Made by a program: the position numbers and the translations under genes
Notes under the pieces: model-generated
Database searches by the model: none
What the model saw: the letters and a program-made list of their open reading frames with translations, nothing else
What the model was told of the DNA's origin: nothing
NCBI RefSeq assembly: GCF_017549005.1
Contig: NZ_JAFYYT010000056.1
Span: 105,054 to 169,053, forward strand
Source: Ruminococcus sp.
GTDB lineage: Bacteria > Bacillota > Clostridia > Oscillospirales > Ruminococcaceae
Reading direction: 5' to 3'
Length of the DNA: 64,000 nucleotides
Part shown: positions 55,844 through 61,052 of the stretch, piece by piece
Layout: the number at the start of each line of letters is the position of its first letter
How positions within the stretch are numbered: position 1 is the first letter of the stretch

Positions 55844-58009
55844 TCATTCGGGCTTGTTGATCTGCTTGAGGCAGTACTTGATGAGAGTCTCGCTATCTTC
55901 AGATGTGATACCCTTCTCGCCTGCAACGTCAGCATTGATCTTGCCCTGCTCTGTGAAGTAATCGATTGAGCTGTCAGAGATGTATGTGAGTACGAGTACA
56001 ACGTCACAAACGTTTACGTCACCGTCTTCGTTTGCATCGCCCCAAACCTTCTTGCCGTCACCGCCGTTTGTCTTAGGTGCTGTTGTTGTAGAAGTTGTTG
56101 TTGTCTTAGGAGCTTCTGTTGTAGTTGTTGTTGTCTTCTCTTCCTTCTTAGTTGTAGTTGTTGTTGTAGTAGTTGTTGTTGTCTCTACTACAGGCTCATC
56201 GCCAACTACGATCTCGAGAGGAGCGAAGCTTGTCTTGTAGTTGAAGTTTGTGCTGTCCTTGAATACCTTGCACTGATCAGCAAAGCCGATTGTGTATGTG
56301 CCGTCCTTAGCGTCAGCGTCAACCTTAACCTTGAGTGTGAATGCAGCCTTTCCATCAGCAGGAACGATAGGCTCACCTGAATCGTCTGTAGATGTGAAGT
56401 TTGCACGGTACTCGTCAGGGTTTGTAGAAACTGCAGAACCGCCGCAAGCTGCTGACTTGCTACCGATCTGAGTGATTGTAAGACCCTTGGAAGCTGCGAA
56501 CTGTACGTCCATAGCTGATACAGGCTTACCGTCAGCCTTTACGTTAGCAACAACTGTGATCTCGTCGCCAGCCTTAGCATTAACCTTTGTATTGCCCTTG
56601 TTGTCTGCGAATGTGAACTGGATGTCGCCGTCCTGAACTACAGTCTTAGTTGTAGTTGTTGTTTCCTGCTTAGGAGCTGTTGTAGTTGTTGTTACCTTAG
56701 GAGCCTCAGTTGTAACATCACCTGAACCGCCGCCTACCTTGATAGTAGCAGGAGCGAAGCTTGTCTTGTAGTTGAAGTTTGTGCTGTCCTTGAATACCTT
56801 GCACTGATCAGCGAAGCCGATTGTGTAAGTAGCATCCTTAGCGTCAGCAGGAACCTTAACCTTGAGTGTGAATGCAGCCTTTCCATCAGCAGGAACGATA
56901 GGCTCACCTGAATCGTCTGTAGATGTGAAGTTTGCACGGTACTCGTCAGGGTTTGTAGAAACTGCAACACCCTCGAGAGCTGTTGCCTTGCCGCCGATCT
57001 GAGTGATCTCAAGACCGTTTGTAGCCTTGAACTGAACGTCCATAGCTGATACAGGCTTACCGCCAGCCTTTACGTTAGCGTAGATTGTGATCTCTTCGCC
57101 AGCAGAAGCTGTGATGTCGCTGTTGCCGTTCTTATCAGCGAATGTGAACTGGATATCGCCGTCCTGAACTACAGGCTTAGTTGTTGTAGTCTCCTGCTTC
57201 TGAACAGTTGTAGTTGTTGTTACCTTAGGAGCCTCAGTTGTTGTAGCCTGCTCCTCACCATCGCCTTTAACAACGATCTTCATTGTCTCGAGATTGAGAG
57301 TCTTATCCTTAGTTGTGAATCTTGTCTTCTCGCCCTCTACGAGAGGTGATGGGTTGTCGTTTACGCCTGAAGCGTCTGTATTGTACTCACAGAACTTGAT
57401 TGTGTATTCGCCTTCAGCGATATTAGCAGGAATAACTGTATCGAATACATAGAAAGGATATGAATCTGACTTTTCGCCAGCCCACTTGTAATCCTTACCG
57501 TTGTTTGTCCATGAGCAACCGATGAAGTAGTTGTCTGTGCCTGCTGCTGACTGGGATGAATCGATACCGAATACATACTTACCAGCTGCTGCATAGCCAT
57601 CGAGATCATCGTATGAACCTGCAAATGAGATATAGCTGCTTGTTGAGAATGTATCTCCGCCAAGTGTGTACTCCTTCTCAGAGTCTGTATAACCTTCCTT
57701 AGTAGGATTATAAAGCTTGAAAGAGATGTCCTTGGAGTCTGTTGTGATAGCAACGAGAAGAGAATCTGTCTTGTTGGTACCCTCTGAATAATATACAGCA
57801 GAAGGGATAACATAACCGTCTGCGGGGATATCCTTCTTGTTGATTGTTATGGAGGACTTAGCATCAGAAGCAGCCGGCTTGCTGATGTCATATGTTTTAA
57901 TAGCAAAGCCCTTGGAAGCGTCTGCAGCACCTACAGTTGCAGGAACTACTGCGCTTACCATTGATGCAGCCATACACAGTGATGTGACTGCAGAAATTAA
58001 CTTTTTCAT
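55844..58009 (-). CDS. scaA: Primary scaffoldin ScaA with two cohesins and dockerin
   Basis: 721 residues. Signal peptide 1-28. N-terminal domain 29-255 of unknown fold, rich in Tyr and Ser. Two cohesins at about 285-430 and 460-605, nearly identical to each other (both have VSTNPDEYRANFTSTDDSG and DQCKVFKDSTNFNYK). Thr-rich linkers contain TTEAPKVTTTTT. Dockerin 655-721: the first loop is a good calcium site (GDANEDGDVNVCD), the second is less regular. It binds ScaB through the dockerin and holds enzyme or ScaC dockerins on its cohesins. R. flavefaciens FD-1 also has two cohesins here. Confidence 0.93.
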   Translation of the reverse strand: MKKLISAVTSLCMAASMVSAVVPATVGAADASKGFAIKTYDISKPAASDAKSSITINKKDIPADGYVIPSAVYYSEGTNKTDSLLVAITTDSKDISFKLYNPTKEGYTDSEKEYTLGGDTFSTSSYISFAGSYDDLDGYAAAGKYVFGIDSSQSAAGTDNYFIGCSWTNNGKDYKWAGEKSDSYPFYVFDTVIPANIAEGEYTIKFCEYNTDASGVNDNPSPLVEGEKTRFTTKDKTLNLETMKIVVKGDGEEQATTTEAPKVTTTTTVQKQETTTTKPVVQDGDIQFTFADKNGNSDITASAGEEITIYANVKAGGKPVSAMDVQFKATNGLEITQIGGKATALEGVAVSTNPDEYRANFTSTDDSGEPIVPADGKAAFTLKVKVPADAKDATYTIGFADQCKVFKDSTNFNYKTSFAPATIKVGGGSGDVTTEAPKVTTTTTAPKQETTTTTKTVVQDGDIQFTFADNKGNTKVNAKAGDEITVVANVKADGKPVSAMDVQFAASKGLTITQIGSKSAACGGSAVSTNPDEYRANFTSTDDSGEPIVPADGKAAFTLKVKVDADAKDGTYTIGFADQCKVFKDSTNFNYKTSFAPLEIVVGDEPVVETTTTTTTTTTTKKEEKTTTTTTEAPKTTTTSTTTAPKTNGGDGKKVWGDANEDGDVNVCDVVLVLTYISDSSIDYFTEQGKINADVAGEKGITSEDSETLIKYCLKQINKPE
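56210..57060. repeat. Internal duplication of the ScaA cohesin
   Basis: Two cohesin coding segments about 531 bp apart are nearly identical in DNA as well as protein; at least 90 bp around 56345-56440 is the same as 56876-56971. Confidence 0.8.
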
Positions 58010-58106
58010 TTGTAATAATTCCTTTCTTTAGGTTTTTACGCCTATTAATAAAACATAAATTGGGTTTGTATTCCTTTGTAAGGGGGACAAATCAGATAAT
58101 CTCGGA

Positions 58107-58970
58107 TCAGAGCTCTTTAATGCTCTTGAGCAGGTACTTCTGGATCTTGAGTGCATCGTTAGATGTAAGACCCTTTACTTCTTCATCAACATCGCCGTTG
58201 AGCTTGCCCTGTTCAGTAATGTGCTTGGAATCAGATCCGCTTAAGCCATACTTGTTGGGGTTTGCAAGACTCTGCATGATGAGAACAGCATCTCCCATAT
58301 CTACTGTACCGTCACAGTTTGCATCACCGCGAACGATCTTTTCAGTTGGCTTTTCAGTTGTTGTTACAGCCTTGCCAACCGTAACGCTTCCGTTGCTAAC
58401 ACTTGTAGCGAGCTTTACAGGCTTACCGTCCTTCTCGTAGCCACAGCCGATGTCTCCGTTGGGAGAACCTGAACCAGCATATGTCTCACGATCAATAGGA
58501 ACGATCTTGAGAGCTGACTCTGCACCATTTGTTGCACCGCTTGCTACAGTACCCTTGATAGTACAGAATACGCCGTCGCCCTTGAGCCAATATGAAGCGT
58601 CATCAGTAGAAGTCGACCAGATCATGCTCACAAAGCCCTCTTTTGAATTGATAGAGCTTTCAAACAGCGGGGAAAGAGAAGCTGACTTGTCAGCAGACTC
58701 TGCGCTCTTGTTTATGAGAGCTCCCTGTTCAACTGATTTAATTGTGAGTACCTTGCTGTCATAGGTAACAGCAAAGTCAAGTGCCTGGATACCGGAAGAT
58801 GGGATATCAGCTAATGATACGTCCACCGAAAATTCTGCACCTGCCTCTGCATTAGTTTTGCCAACGGATATCTGCACTGTTTCGCCGGCAGCTACTGCAG
58901 GTGCAAGTGAGCAGACAGAAAGTGAAAGCATCGCAGCCAATGCTCCGACGACTACCTTTTTTGTCTTCAT
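58107..58970 (-). CDS. scaC: Adaptor scaffoldin ScaC: one cohesin plus dockerin
   Basis: 287 residues from the ATG at 58970, chosen because AAGGAGG lies 8 nt upstream; the frame extends to a TTG at 58991 within the ribosome binding site region. Signal peptide 1-28. Cohesin about 30-195 (ISVGKTNAEAGAEFSVDVSL, then ALDFAVTYDSKVLTI). Dockerin 215-287, first loop GDANCDGTVDMGDAV. ScaC docks on ScaA and exposes a cohesin of different specificity, widening the set of enzymes recruited. First gene of the cluster, behind a long structured leader. Confidence 0.93.
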   Translation of the reverse strand: MKTKKVVVGALAAMLSLSVCSLAPAVAAGETVQISVGKTNAEAGAEFSVDVSLADIPSSGIQALDFAVTYDSKVLTIKSVEQGALINKSAESADKSASLSPLFESSINSKEGFVSMIWSTSTDDASYWLKGDGVFCTIKGTVASGATNGAESALKIVPIDRETYAGSGSPNGDIGCGYEKDGKPVKLATSVSNGSVTVGKAVTTTEKPTEKIVRGDANCDGTVDMGDAVLIMQSLANPNKYGLSGSDSKHITEQGKLNGDVDEEVKGLTSNDALKIQKYLLKSIKEL

Positions 58971-59038
58971 TATTTTTTCCTCCTTCTTCAATAATGTTAT
59001 ATAACAAAGGAACGGGTATGCCCCTTTTATTATATCTT

Positions 59039-59281
59039 GTCTTAATTCAGCGGCCCCCTGTCCGCCGTCCGCAAAACCGCGTCACCGATATACGAATGAA
59101 GCACGTGCCTGGCGGGCGGAAAACGCCGCTGCTGGTCATACAGACGCGACCTAAGCACTCTGAGCTGCGGTTCAAGCGGATCTATCCAGATCAAGCGTTT
59201 GTACACACTGCTCCGAAGCTCCCCTCTGATGTCAGTCCGTGACCACACCGCACTCTGCACGCAGTGGTTTTGTCCTAAGAC
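59039..59281 (-). ncRNA. Candidate structured leader RNA upstream of scaC
   Basis: About 243 nt, visibly more GC-rich than the flanks, between the promoter at 59339 and scaC. Nested long-range pairings close it on itself: GTCTTA (59281-59276) with TAAGAC (59044-59039), then CAAAACC (59272-59266) with GGTTTTG (59078-59072). Local hairpins inside include GATCT/AGATC, GGCG/CGCC and GCGG/CCGC. A 72-codon open frame exists but is Arg-rich, without a ribosome binding site, and looks like a by-product of base composition. Hallmark motifs of 6S, RNase P, SRP and tmRNA are not seen. Confidence 0.5.
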
Positions 59282-59338
59282 GCATCACACTGCCGTGATG
59301 AGACACTTAATGCCAAGTCTATACTTATTCATGATTTC

Positions 59339-59367
59339 ATTATATATCAGGTCTAATCAAAAGTAAA
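59339..59367 (-). promoter_or_regulatory. Promoter of the sca cluster
   Basis: TTTACT (59367-59362) and TATAAT (59344-59339) on the minus strand, 17 bp apart. The start near 59332 would give scaC a leader of about 360 nt. 59370-59495 shows nothing more. Confidence 0.6.
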
Positions 59368-59495
59368 TAGGTTCATATAGTTTTTGGTATTTTACATAAA
59401 CAGTTAAAGTTATTTTTGCACGGTTTGCACAATCTCATTTTTTCTCAAAAACAGCGTTTCAAGCCTGTATTTGAACAAAAAATGAATTTATCAAT

Positions 59496-60755
59496 TTATT
59501 TGTCGAGTTTGCGAAATTCAGTAGGAATTGCCTCGTCAATTATGCGATTTATAACGTTCCAGCCGAAGTCTGTATAAGTACCCTGCGGCACCGCATAAGG
59601 CAGTCCGTGACGCTCTGCAAGCTCGGGTGAATATTTGCTGTAAGGATAAACTTTCATGTTTGAAAATTCGCTCTCGTAGTGAACGATAGTGGGTATGCAG
59701 CCCACATTTTCAAGTCTCAGCTCATTCGTCTGACCGTCGATGACGATATCGAAATCGGGAAGCTCACCGACCACGTTGAAGTTGTCGGTCTGAGCACATA
59801 TGAAATTGCCCATTGAGTAGTAGACAAAGCCCTTTGTTCCGTCATCACGCTCTATCCATTCCATTGTCTGGGCTGTATGCGTATGGCAGCCGAGTATGAC
59901 ATCTGCGCCCCAGTCCACCATTTTATCGGCGAGTTCACGCCTTTCGTCGGAAACGATAGTCGTATCCTCAGCGCCCCAGTGCGCCGAAACTATAACAACA
60001 TCCGCAAGCTGTCTTGCTTCCTTGATCTGCCTCTCGATAACGTCCTCCTCGTCGTTCTTGATAACTCTGAGCGGCACGTCGTCAAGCAGCGCGTCGAAGC
60101 CGTTTATATGCTCCGCATAGGCAAGGAAAGCGATCTTTACGCCGTTGACCTCGCGGACGCGGATATTGTTCGCATCTTCCTCGTCAAGGTAAGCGCCCAG
60201 GACTGTAAGGTTATTCTCCGCTGCCTTTCTGTTCCAGAAATTTATGGATTCCTCCAGTCCGCTCGTACCCATATCGAGCAGATGATTGTTTGCCATTGTA
60301 AATACGTCGAAGCCGAGGTCTATCACCGCGTCAGCCACCTCGGGCGGCGAGTTGAATATGAGGACTCCGCCCTCTGCGCCTCGTATGCCGTTGCTCTCGG
60401 AGATGACAGTCTCCTGATTGAGTATTGCGACGTCGGCAGCCTCGATGAGGTACTTGACCTCAGAGTACATGGGCTTGAAGTCGTAGCCGTAGCCGCCTGC
60501 CAGTTTTTCGGCGTTCTTGAACACTGAATAGTGTATGAGGTTATCGCCTGCAGCCGTTACGTGAACGACCTTATCGGGCGGAACAGTCGTCTGCTCCTCC
60601 GTAGTTTCCTCGGGGACTGTTGTCACCGCTACTTCAGAAGTATCCTGCGGATCGTTGTTGGCTTTGCCGACTATAGTTCCGCAGCCGATGCCGCCTGCAA
60701 CCAGCGCTGTCAGGATCGCCAGCGCCCCTGCGGCACGTCCTTTTCTTAGTTTCAT
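59496..60755 (-). CDS. CapA-family (PGA_cap) metallophosphatase-like protein
   Basis: 419 residues. N-terminal helix with a possible lipid-attachment Cys (GGIGC at about 25), then a Thr/Glu linker. The CapA domain starts at about 68 (HVTAAGDNLIH) with metal ligands in AILNQETVIS, TMANNHLLDMG, VIVSAHWGAE and LGCHTHTAQ. Family members are named for polyglutamate capsule synthesis, but most are calcineurin-like phosphatases of unknown role at the cell surface. Stands alone. Confidence 0.88.
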   Translation of the reverse strand: MKLRKGRAAGALAILTALVAGGIGCGTIVGKANNDPQDTSEVAVTTVPEETTEEQTTVPPDKVVHVTAAGDNLIHYSVFKNAEKLAGGYGYDFKPMYSEVKYLIEAADVAILNQETVISESNGIRGAEGGVLIFNSPPEVADAVIDLGFDVFTMANNHLLDMGTSGLEESINFWNRKAAENNLTVLGAYLDEEDANNIRVREVNGVKIAFLAYAEHINGFDALLDDVPLRVIKNDEEDVIERQIKEARQLADVVIVSAHWGAEDTTIVSDERRELADKMVDWGADVILGCHTHTAQTMEWIERDDGTKGFVYYSMGNFICAQTDNFNVVGELPDFDIVIDGQTNELRLENVGCIPTIVHYESEFSNMKVYPYSKYSPELAERHGLPYAVPQGTYTDFGWNVINRIIDEAIPTEFRKLDK

Positions 60756-61052
60756 AAAGGTCTCCTTTGTAAAAGCAGTATAAAAACAACATAAAATATA
60801 CCGCTTTTCAATTCATATTATATCACATTATTTTTCATTTGGCAATTACAATTTGTATCAAACTTAAATGACTTTACAAGCTGTTTTATATTACAAAAGA
60901 TTAAATTTTGGTTACAAACTGCGGATTTAAGCCAAATTCTCCTTTTGTAACTTTATCACTACCCGTTATTTGTGAGTTCATACGAATTTTTAACTGATAA
61001 TTTGTGCAATCCGTCAAACTTTGTCATTTTTATCCAAATAGTATACATTTTT
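60756..61052. other. AT-rich intergenic stretch without a clear feature
   Basis: 297 bp of AT-rich sequence between dusB and capA-like gene. No reading frame with a ribosome binding site, no clear terminator and no convincing promoter were found. Confidence 0.5.

Follow-up and report, generated by a model that had tools for sequence, protein, structure and literature searches.

To our knowledge, how ruminococci of the rumen and gut keep the components of their cellulosomes in proportion is an open question. It takes a concrete form in the 64-kb stretch of Ruminococcus DNA analyzed here (the window), where a first-pass annotation made from the sequence had placed a long structured leader or a small RNA where the sca scaffoldin cluster begins, ahead of its first gene, scaC. 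We asked whether such an RNA is kept in relatives, which of its parts have been conserved and what it could do for scaC. If the leader sets ScaC output, it would offer a small testable handle on cellulosome balance in a genus central to fiber digestion, and would represent a new family of structured leaders with about a hundred natural variants.

The scaC locus and the parts of its leader

In the window, scaC (58107-58970, minus strand) is followed downstream by scaA and scaB, scaA being named by its place in the cluster. Pfam finds in ScaC a cohesin (PF00963, E 2e-17) and a weak dockerin match (PF00404, 20.9 bits, below the Pfam cut-off of 22.9). The conserved upstream neighbor, according to the open reading frame list and Pfam, is a capA-like gene (PF09587; 59496-60755, minus strand). 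A sequence scan found the promoter already read by the first-pass annotation between the two genes: a TTTACT -35 and a TATAAT -10 separated by 17 nt (59367-59339, minus strand). Both hexamers are present in 105/105 collected copies and the spacer measures 17 nt in 104 of them, a count in which both hexamers were fixed by the search pattern and the spacer was free between limits. Upstream of the -35, ACCAAAAA (59381-59388, minus strand), whose loose pattern matches 98/105 copies, is a possible regulator site.

Genome comparison delimits a leader of about 370 nt, from the first base past the -10 to the scaC ATG (59338-58968, minus strand), ending at the start codon (58970-58968); judging by the position of the -10, transcription would start around 59332. 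The observation of the annotation (59039-59281) is confirmed, both helices being at their stated positions, but the feature lies on the minus strand and is larger: the leader runs from about 59332 to 58971, and the annotated stretch left out two 5' hairpins and the hairpin P3.

After the -10 come a conserved 5' end, the hairpins P0 and P1, the 5' strand of the closing helix P2 and a hypervariable GC-rich domain which contains P4 and hairpins; 3' of this domain stand the other strand of P2, P3, the Shine-Dalgarno sequence and the AUG. All elements lie on the minus strand. P0 (59300-59314) is a weak hairpin, GGGAU/AUCUC in relatives with one mismatch in the window; 75.3% of its cells are paired in the aligned leaders and its last base is shared with the start of P1. 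The latter (59283-59300) reads CAUCAC-GGCAGU-GUGAUG. P2 can join GUCUUA (59281-59276) to UAAGAC (59044-59039), and the inner helix P4 can join CAAAACC (59272-59266) to GGUUUUG (59078-59072). Directly inside the closing helix, P5 (59048-59067) pairs CGGCGG with CCGCUG; by eye, P5-like hairpins of other sequence are observed in many relatives. The most conserved part is P3 (58999-59035), which reads AUAUAAU-A-AAAGGGGC on its 5' side and GUUCCUUU-GUUAUAU on its 3' side. The Shine-Dalgarno sequence AAGGAGG (58979-58985) falls in the loop of a weak hairpin, P6 (CAUUAUU/AAUAAUG, 58968-58996), and the AUG in its stem.

The inner domain varies greatly in length and sequence between relatives: in 89 copies, P3 stands anywhere from 139 to 334 nt away from the -10, and the branched domain appears to be gone in L120, where P3 is retained.

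Two further observations concern loops. The GGCAGU loop of P1 is complementary to CACUGC about 25 nt downstream (59261-59294, minus strand). A complementary run of at least 5 is found in 70/82 relatives, with a mean of 5.2 as compared with 4.0 in shuffled sequences, and this pairing could form a pseudoknot, or else an alternative hairpin excluding P2. Many of the longer inner domains (e.g. L057, L081, L102 and L103) carry a conserved UGUACA-type loop on a stem of changing sequence. G[UA]ACA occurs within the domain of 58/89 copies, not in a hairpin loop every time. Being palindromic, the UGUACA-type loop could give rise to RNA dimers.

Distribution among relatives

The leader DNA matched 29 of the 60 genomes searched, namely its own genome, 27/35 other genomes of the genus and one genome of another family, whose match of only 28 nt (G047) was counted as chance. 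Each of the 28 genus loci is flanked by a CapA-like frame on its upstream side and by a ScaC-like one on its downstream side. The pattern of the 3' hairpin was found in 86/125 genus genomes, with 0 for the reversed control, and in 3/197 family genomes, all three belonging to the genus; among named records (84 stretches overall) it occurs in R. flavefaciens FD-1, 007c and ATCC 19208. A search with the ScaC protein covered 37 genomes, i.e. the 36 without a known copy and G028. It added 16 copies, with altered hairpins in most, from genomes picked for the absence of the pattern or, for G028, for a deviating one. All 105 collected copies (89 + 16) precede a ScaC-type open reading frame.

The check by covariance model, suggested along with the annotation, was carried out with R2, a model of the 3' part of the leader whose structure was supplied by hand. 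R2 recovers 105 strong places (at least 54.5 bits) in 104/125 genus genomes, equal in number to the 89 and 16 collected copies, and the scores beneath them fall from 54.5 to 35.5 bits in one gap. At E <= 0.01, it matches 62/68 of the more complete genus genomes. Each genome has one strong copy, save G006 (about 330 contigs) with two, both ahead of scaC-type genes. In the 125 genus genomes no strong match lies away from scaC, and three weak ones score 31.7-35.5 bits; the large searches were run under strict filters, which lose weak matches. The own genome has no second copy of the leader, only matches of 16-21 nt. The 21/125 genus genomes without a strong R2 match include several incomplete ones, and six genus genomes carry diverged ScaC-like genes without the element (seven loci, L130-L135 and L143).

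In a second genus, R2 finds a match in 3/3 genomes, with scores of 38.5-41.8 bits, and all three show the order PGA_cap (PF09587), leader, and a protein with cohesin and dockerin (PF00963, PF00404). A further match in the family (G241, 34.2 bits) looks like chance, another kind of protein following it as judged by eye.

Pairing maintained through sequence change

The folding energy of the window copy alone is ordinary, with z-scores of -1.02 and -1.08 and 15/100 and 30/200 shuffles folding equally well or better, so that the question of structure had to be decided by comparison. For 81 of the 89 copies, with 15 shuffles each, the branched domain inside P2 has a mean z of -3.02 and lies below zero in 80/81, as against -1.08 (63/79 below zero) for the control upstream of the promoter and -0.75 (55/81) for the scaC coding sequence.

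In the 89 aligned leaders, P1 and P2 jointly display changes on both sides in 10/11 pairs: 5/5 counted pairs for P1, 96.6% of whose cells are paired, and 5/6 for P2, with 85.5% of cells paired. In the whole structure, 14/31 pairs have changed on both sides versus 7.9 in shuffles, none of 500 reaching 14, the shuffles taking no account of the relatedness of the genomes. When the structure is slid along the alignment, 38-64% of cells are paired versus 92.6% for the structure itself, and 7-11 pairs are double-changed. In double-changed cells, two of the six slid versions reach 49 and 42, versus 40 for the structure.

We also compared the duplex energy of native strands with that of pairs taken between genomes (strand-swap test), in 82/89 copies, the other 7 being without a P1 anchor. 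P2 gives a modest signal, with z -3.3 versus -2.1 and -2.7 for the reversed controls. In the P4 region, native partners reach z -7.1 versus 0.1 and -0.8 for the reversed controls, a search which picks the best duplex within the region and therefore leaves the individual base pairs of the CAAAACC/GGUUUUG helix unproven. With only 24 representatives, the values are -2.5 for P2 (control -1.4) and -2.7 for P4 (control 0.6). P6 covaries as well (z -5.3 versus -1.4 for the reversed control, n=105). When the 17 closest relatives are folded to a consensus, the GGUUUUGCA strand pairs with the neighboring GCAGAGC and not with CAAAACC, which suggests that the two may compete for it; this fold also gives other pairings for the strands of P1 and P2.

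Comparison shows that sequence change in P1, P2 and P3, and in the region of P4, has left the predicted pairing in place. The outer GTCTTA/TAAGAC pairing of the first-pass annotation is thereby upheld by compensatory changes of modest statistics, and its inner CAAAACC/GGTTTTG pairing lies in a region that covaries clearly. Its proposal of a structured leader heading the sca cluster agrees with the conservation of the element in relatives.

The P3 hairpin and the start of scaC

P3, the Shine-Dalgarno sequence and the first scaC codons form the most conserved part of the leader region. Since the 89-copy set was mostly gathered by a pattern fixing the letters of P3, the invariance of this hairpin there is partly by construction. 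In the 43 copies collected without the P3 pattern, 98.7% of P3 cells are paired, versus 98.3 when shuffled; double changes are confined to two pairs of a single genome (L114 by sequence), and the covariation score is 0.048 versus 0.050 in shuffles, 400/500 of which reach it. The structure used for this pair count was given by hand. In L114, both arms are altered and pairing is kept (AGAGAGG/CUCUCU).

The arms of P3 in the second genus are stronger evidence of pairing than the 43-copy set. The inner stem reads AAAGGAAU/AUUCCUUU in L242 and L243 and AAGGCGG/CCGCUUU in L249, paired in every case, and outer arms of the UAUAA/UUAUA type are retained. Across the first genus, the P3 loop measures 4-6 nt, a variation more in keeping with the loop of an RNA than with a DNA operator. 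RNAalifold, run on A3, preferred a pairing of the Shine-Dalgarno sequence over P3, a choice that we are inclined to attribute to gaps interrupting the columns of P3; the model derived from this fold (R1) was left out of the searches.

Conservation continues beyond the AUG. Codon 2 of scaC is AAG in 89/89 copies, the threonine of codon 3 is ACA in 78/78, the lysine of codon 5 AAG in 87/87 and the valine of codon 7 GTC in 81/81, and from codon 8 onward codons vary. As codons 2, 3, 5 and 7 are near frozen, the constraint at the RNA level may extend into scaC.

The leader itself lacks a convincing protein frame, as the annotation had stated. Its 72-codon frame (59260-59042, GTG start) is open in 1/17 aligned sequences, the window's own. 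No conserved short open reading frame that would make a leader peptide was found in the 105 copies, 66 of which have an ATG near the start, with frames of 5 to 69 aa.

Known RNA families and earlier reports

The Rfam scan put forward with the annotation was performed with Rfam 15: no family, riboswitches included, matched the 64 kb at gathering score, in line with the statement that no RNA had been described at this place. When 20 relatives were compared with Rfam, caiA RNA (RF02934) was the sole family at E <= 1, below its cut-off. It scores 23.7 bits in the window, versus a gathering score of 55.5, and 29.3-31.9 bits in 3/20 relatives; similar scores also occur elsewhere in the same genomes. 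It exceeds its cut-off in 0/125 genus genomes and in 0/197 genomes of the order, where control genomes are silent too. The weak caiA match at the leader is at chance level. Like the leader, caiA RNA, the best weak Rfam match at this place, has a hairpin followed by UUAUAUA, a Shine-Dalgarno sequence and an AUG; unlike it, its model of 78 positions is devoid of a branched domain.

Part of the element has already served as DNA. The PCR primer ScaFwd, which types R. flavefaciens scaC (PMC3197198), reads AGACARGRTATAATHAAAGGGGC and corresponds to the 3' strand of P2 and the 5' arm of P3; the accessible portion of that report makes use of the conservation at the DNA level and mentions no RNA structure or function (PMC3197198). 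Among the titles and abstract beginnings searched, a scope outside which most subscription journals fall, no RNA was reported at this place, and a term search in one ncRNA survey found neither 'Ruminococc' nor 'cellulos' (PMC11109978). We file the element as a putative new family of structured cis-acting leader, a known kind of RNA.

Possible functions of the leader

The first-pass annotation had hesitated between a cis-regulatory and an independent RNA. Since strong copies go together with the start of scaC, cis action on this gene is the simplest reading, and the former option is favored: P3 ends 26-31 nt before the AUG of a ScaC-type gene in 105/105 copies, including the 16 found via ScaC. 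In our view, the element is probably a structured 5' leader of scaC that acts in cis and after transcription. Hairpins located right before a ribosome site can shield the 5' end of a message or determine where it lies. P3 could be such a stability or processing hairpin, which would cap the scaC message and leave the ribosome site accessible; the branched domain could tune its effect. The output of scaC would then be set post-transcriptionally and separately from that of the downstream scaA and scaB, the main step being stability, processing or translation. In R. flavefaciens FD-1, the mRNAs of scaA, scaB and scaC are reported to increase about 4.5-fold with cellulose (PMC2721979), and in strain 007C the ScaC protein is reported to be little affected by the substrate (PMC3672088). 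This contrast, drawn between different strains and methods, only hints at control after transcription, and the leader may help explain it.

The annotation had further inferred that the cis-regulatory RNA senses a signal for cellulosome production. Such a leader would sense a ligand or a protein as a riboswitch does, P1 with its GGCAGU loop, P2 and the inner loops forming a receptor by which the scaC start would be opened or closed. The conserved P1 loop, its complementarity to the downstream stretch (a run of at least 5 in 70/82), the UGUACA-type loop of many inner domains and the cited difference between sca mRNAs and ScaC protein on cellulose would all be consistent with this. However, both the length and the sequence of the inner domain vary widely, the domain is apparently lost in L120 and 7/89 copies yielded no P1 anchor. 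The 139-334 nt separating the -10 from P3 and the loss in L120 are unlike a metabolite aptamer. Furthermore, none of the four terminator-like sites that a simple consensus scan for a transcription attenuator located in 57500-61000 falls within the leader, and the window has no Rfam match at gathering score. We regard a sensing leader as unlikely. We would also be surprised to find an independent small RNA made from the same promoter, cut or ending before scaC and acting on other messages. The GC-rich and fast-evolving sequence, the closing helix P2 of its own and the conserved promoter would suit such an RNA, but no strong copy exists apart from scaC in the 125 genus genomes, conservation peaks at P3, the Shine-Dalgarno sequence and the first codons, and the terminator-like sites again lie outside the leader.

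Two other explanations concern P3 itself. It could be the inverted-repeat operator of a repressor, the RNA fold being a by-product of control at the DNA level. The outer arms AUAUAA/UUAUAU are indeed near invariant in their letters, second genus included. Yet L242 and L243 have 9-10 nt between the inner arms, as compared with 4-6 nt in the genus, conserved G-U pairs would be mismatches in a DNA dyad, and the inner arms alter on both strands with pairing kept, which makes an operator very improbable. Alternatively, P3 could conceal an anti-Shine-Dalgarno sequence, UUCCUUU, that would block the ribosome site once P3 opens. In agreement with this, RNAalifold on A3 pairs UUCCUUU with GAAGGAG, and the computed accessibility of the Shine-Dalgarno sequence drops from 0.88 to 0.45 once the 5' arm of P3 is removed. 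But a shuffled 3' arm gives 0.44, hence the effect is compositional; the native value is lower in 62/105, and L249 carries CCGCUUUGG instead. We give this mechanism hardly any credit.

For the cis-acting leader of scaC, the nearest system is the cip-cel operon of Clostridium cellulolyticum, in which the stoichiometry of the cellulosome is reported to depend on stem-loops and on selective processing and stabilization of RNA (PMC4423207). In both cases cellulosome genes are concerned and RNA stem-loops adjoin scaffoldin genes; a structured segment of the cipC 5' UTR was among those tested, and orthologous stem-loops occur in related species (PMC4423207). On the other hand, the cip-cel stem-loops stand mostly at 3' ends or between genes and have mapped processing sites (PMC4423207), whereas scaC has a long 5' leader and belongs to other bacteria. 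A bolder and rather doubtful hypothesis would be that the sca cluster holds an RNA program for cellulosome stoichiometry, in which the branched domain and old hairpin of scaC, together with a near-invariant element between scaC and scaA, would set scaffoldin ratios post-transcriptionally, perhaps in response to a signal or to a scaffoldin-related protein.

The spacer between scaC and scaA

The spacer separating scaC from scaA has features of its own. The 3' arm of P3 pairs perfectly in the window with ACAAAGGAA of this spacer; we rejected this pairing, which is not co-conserved, L114 changing P3 only and L119, L127, L128 and L129 changing the spacer only with the same 3' arm of P3. Directly 3' of scaC (58062-58101, minus strand), near-invariant GATTATCT[GT]ATTTGTC is present in 104/104 spacers, one of the 105 loci ending too early. 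In most spacers CCCCCTTACAAAGGAATACAAACCC or a closely similar sequence comes next, along with a small CCUU/AAGG hairpin. The near-invariant element occurs once in its own genome, includes the site of primer ScaRev and was not found in the three spacers of the second genus. Just ahead of the scaA Shine-Dalgarno sequence (58029-58044, minus strand) lies a hairpin of the UAGG...CCUA type. A best-stem script retrieves such a stem in about 56/103 spacers, other stems being longer in the remainder, and these stems differ in sequence, for instance TAGACCTCA/TGAGGTCTA and AGGTCT/AGACCT.
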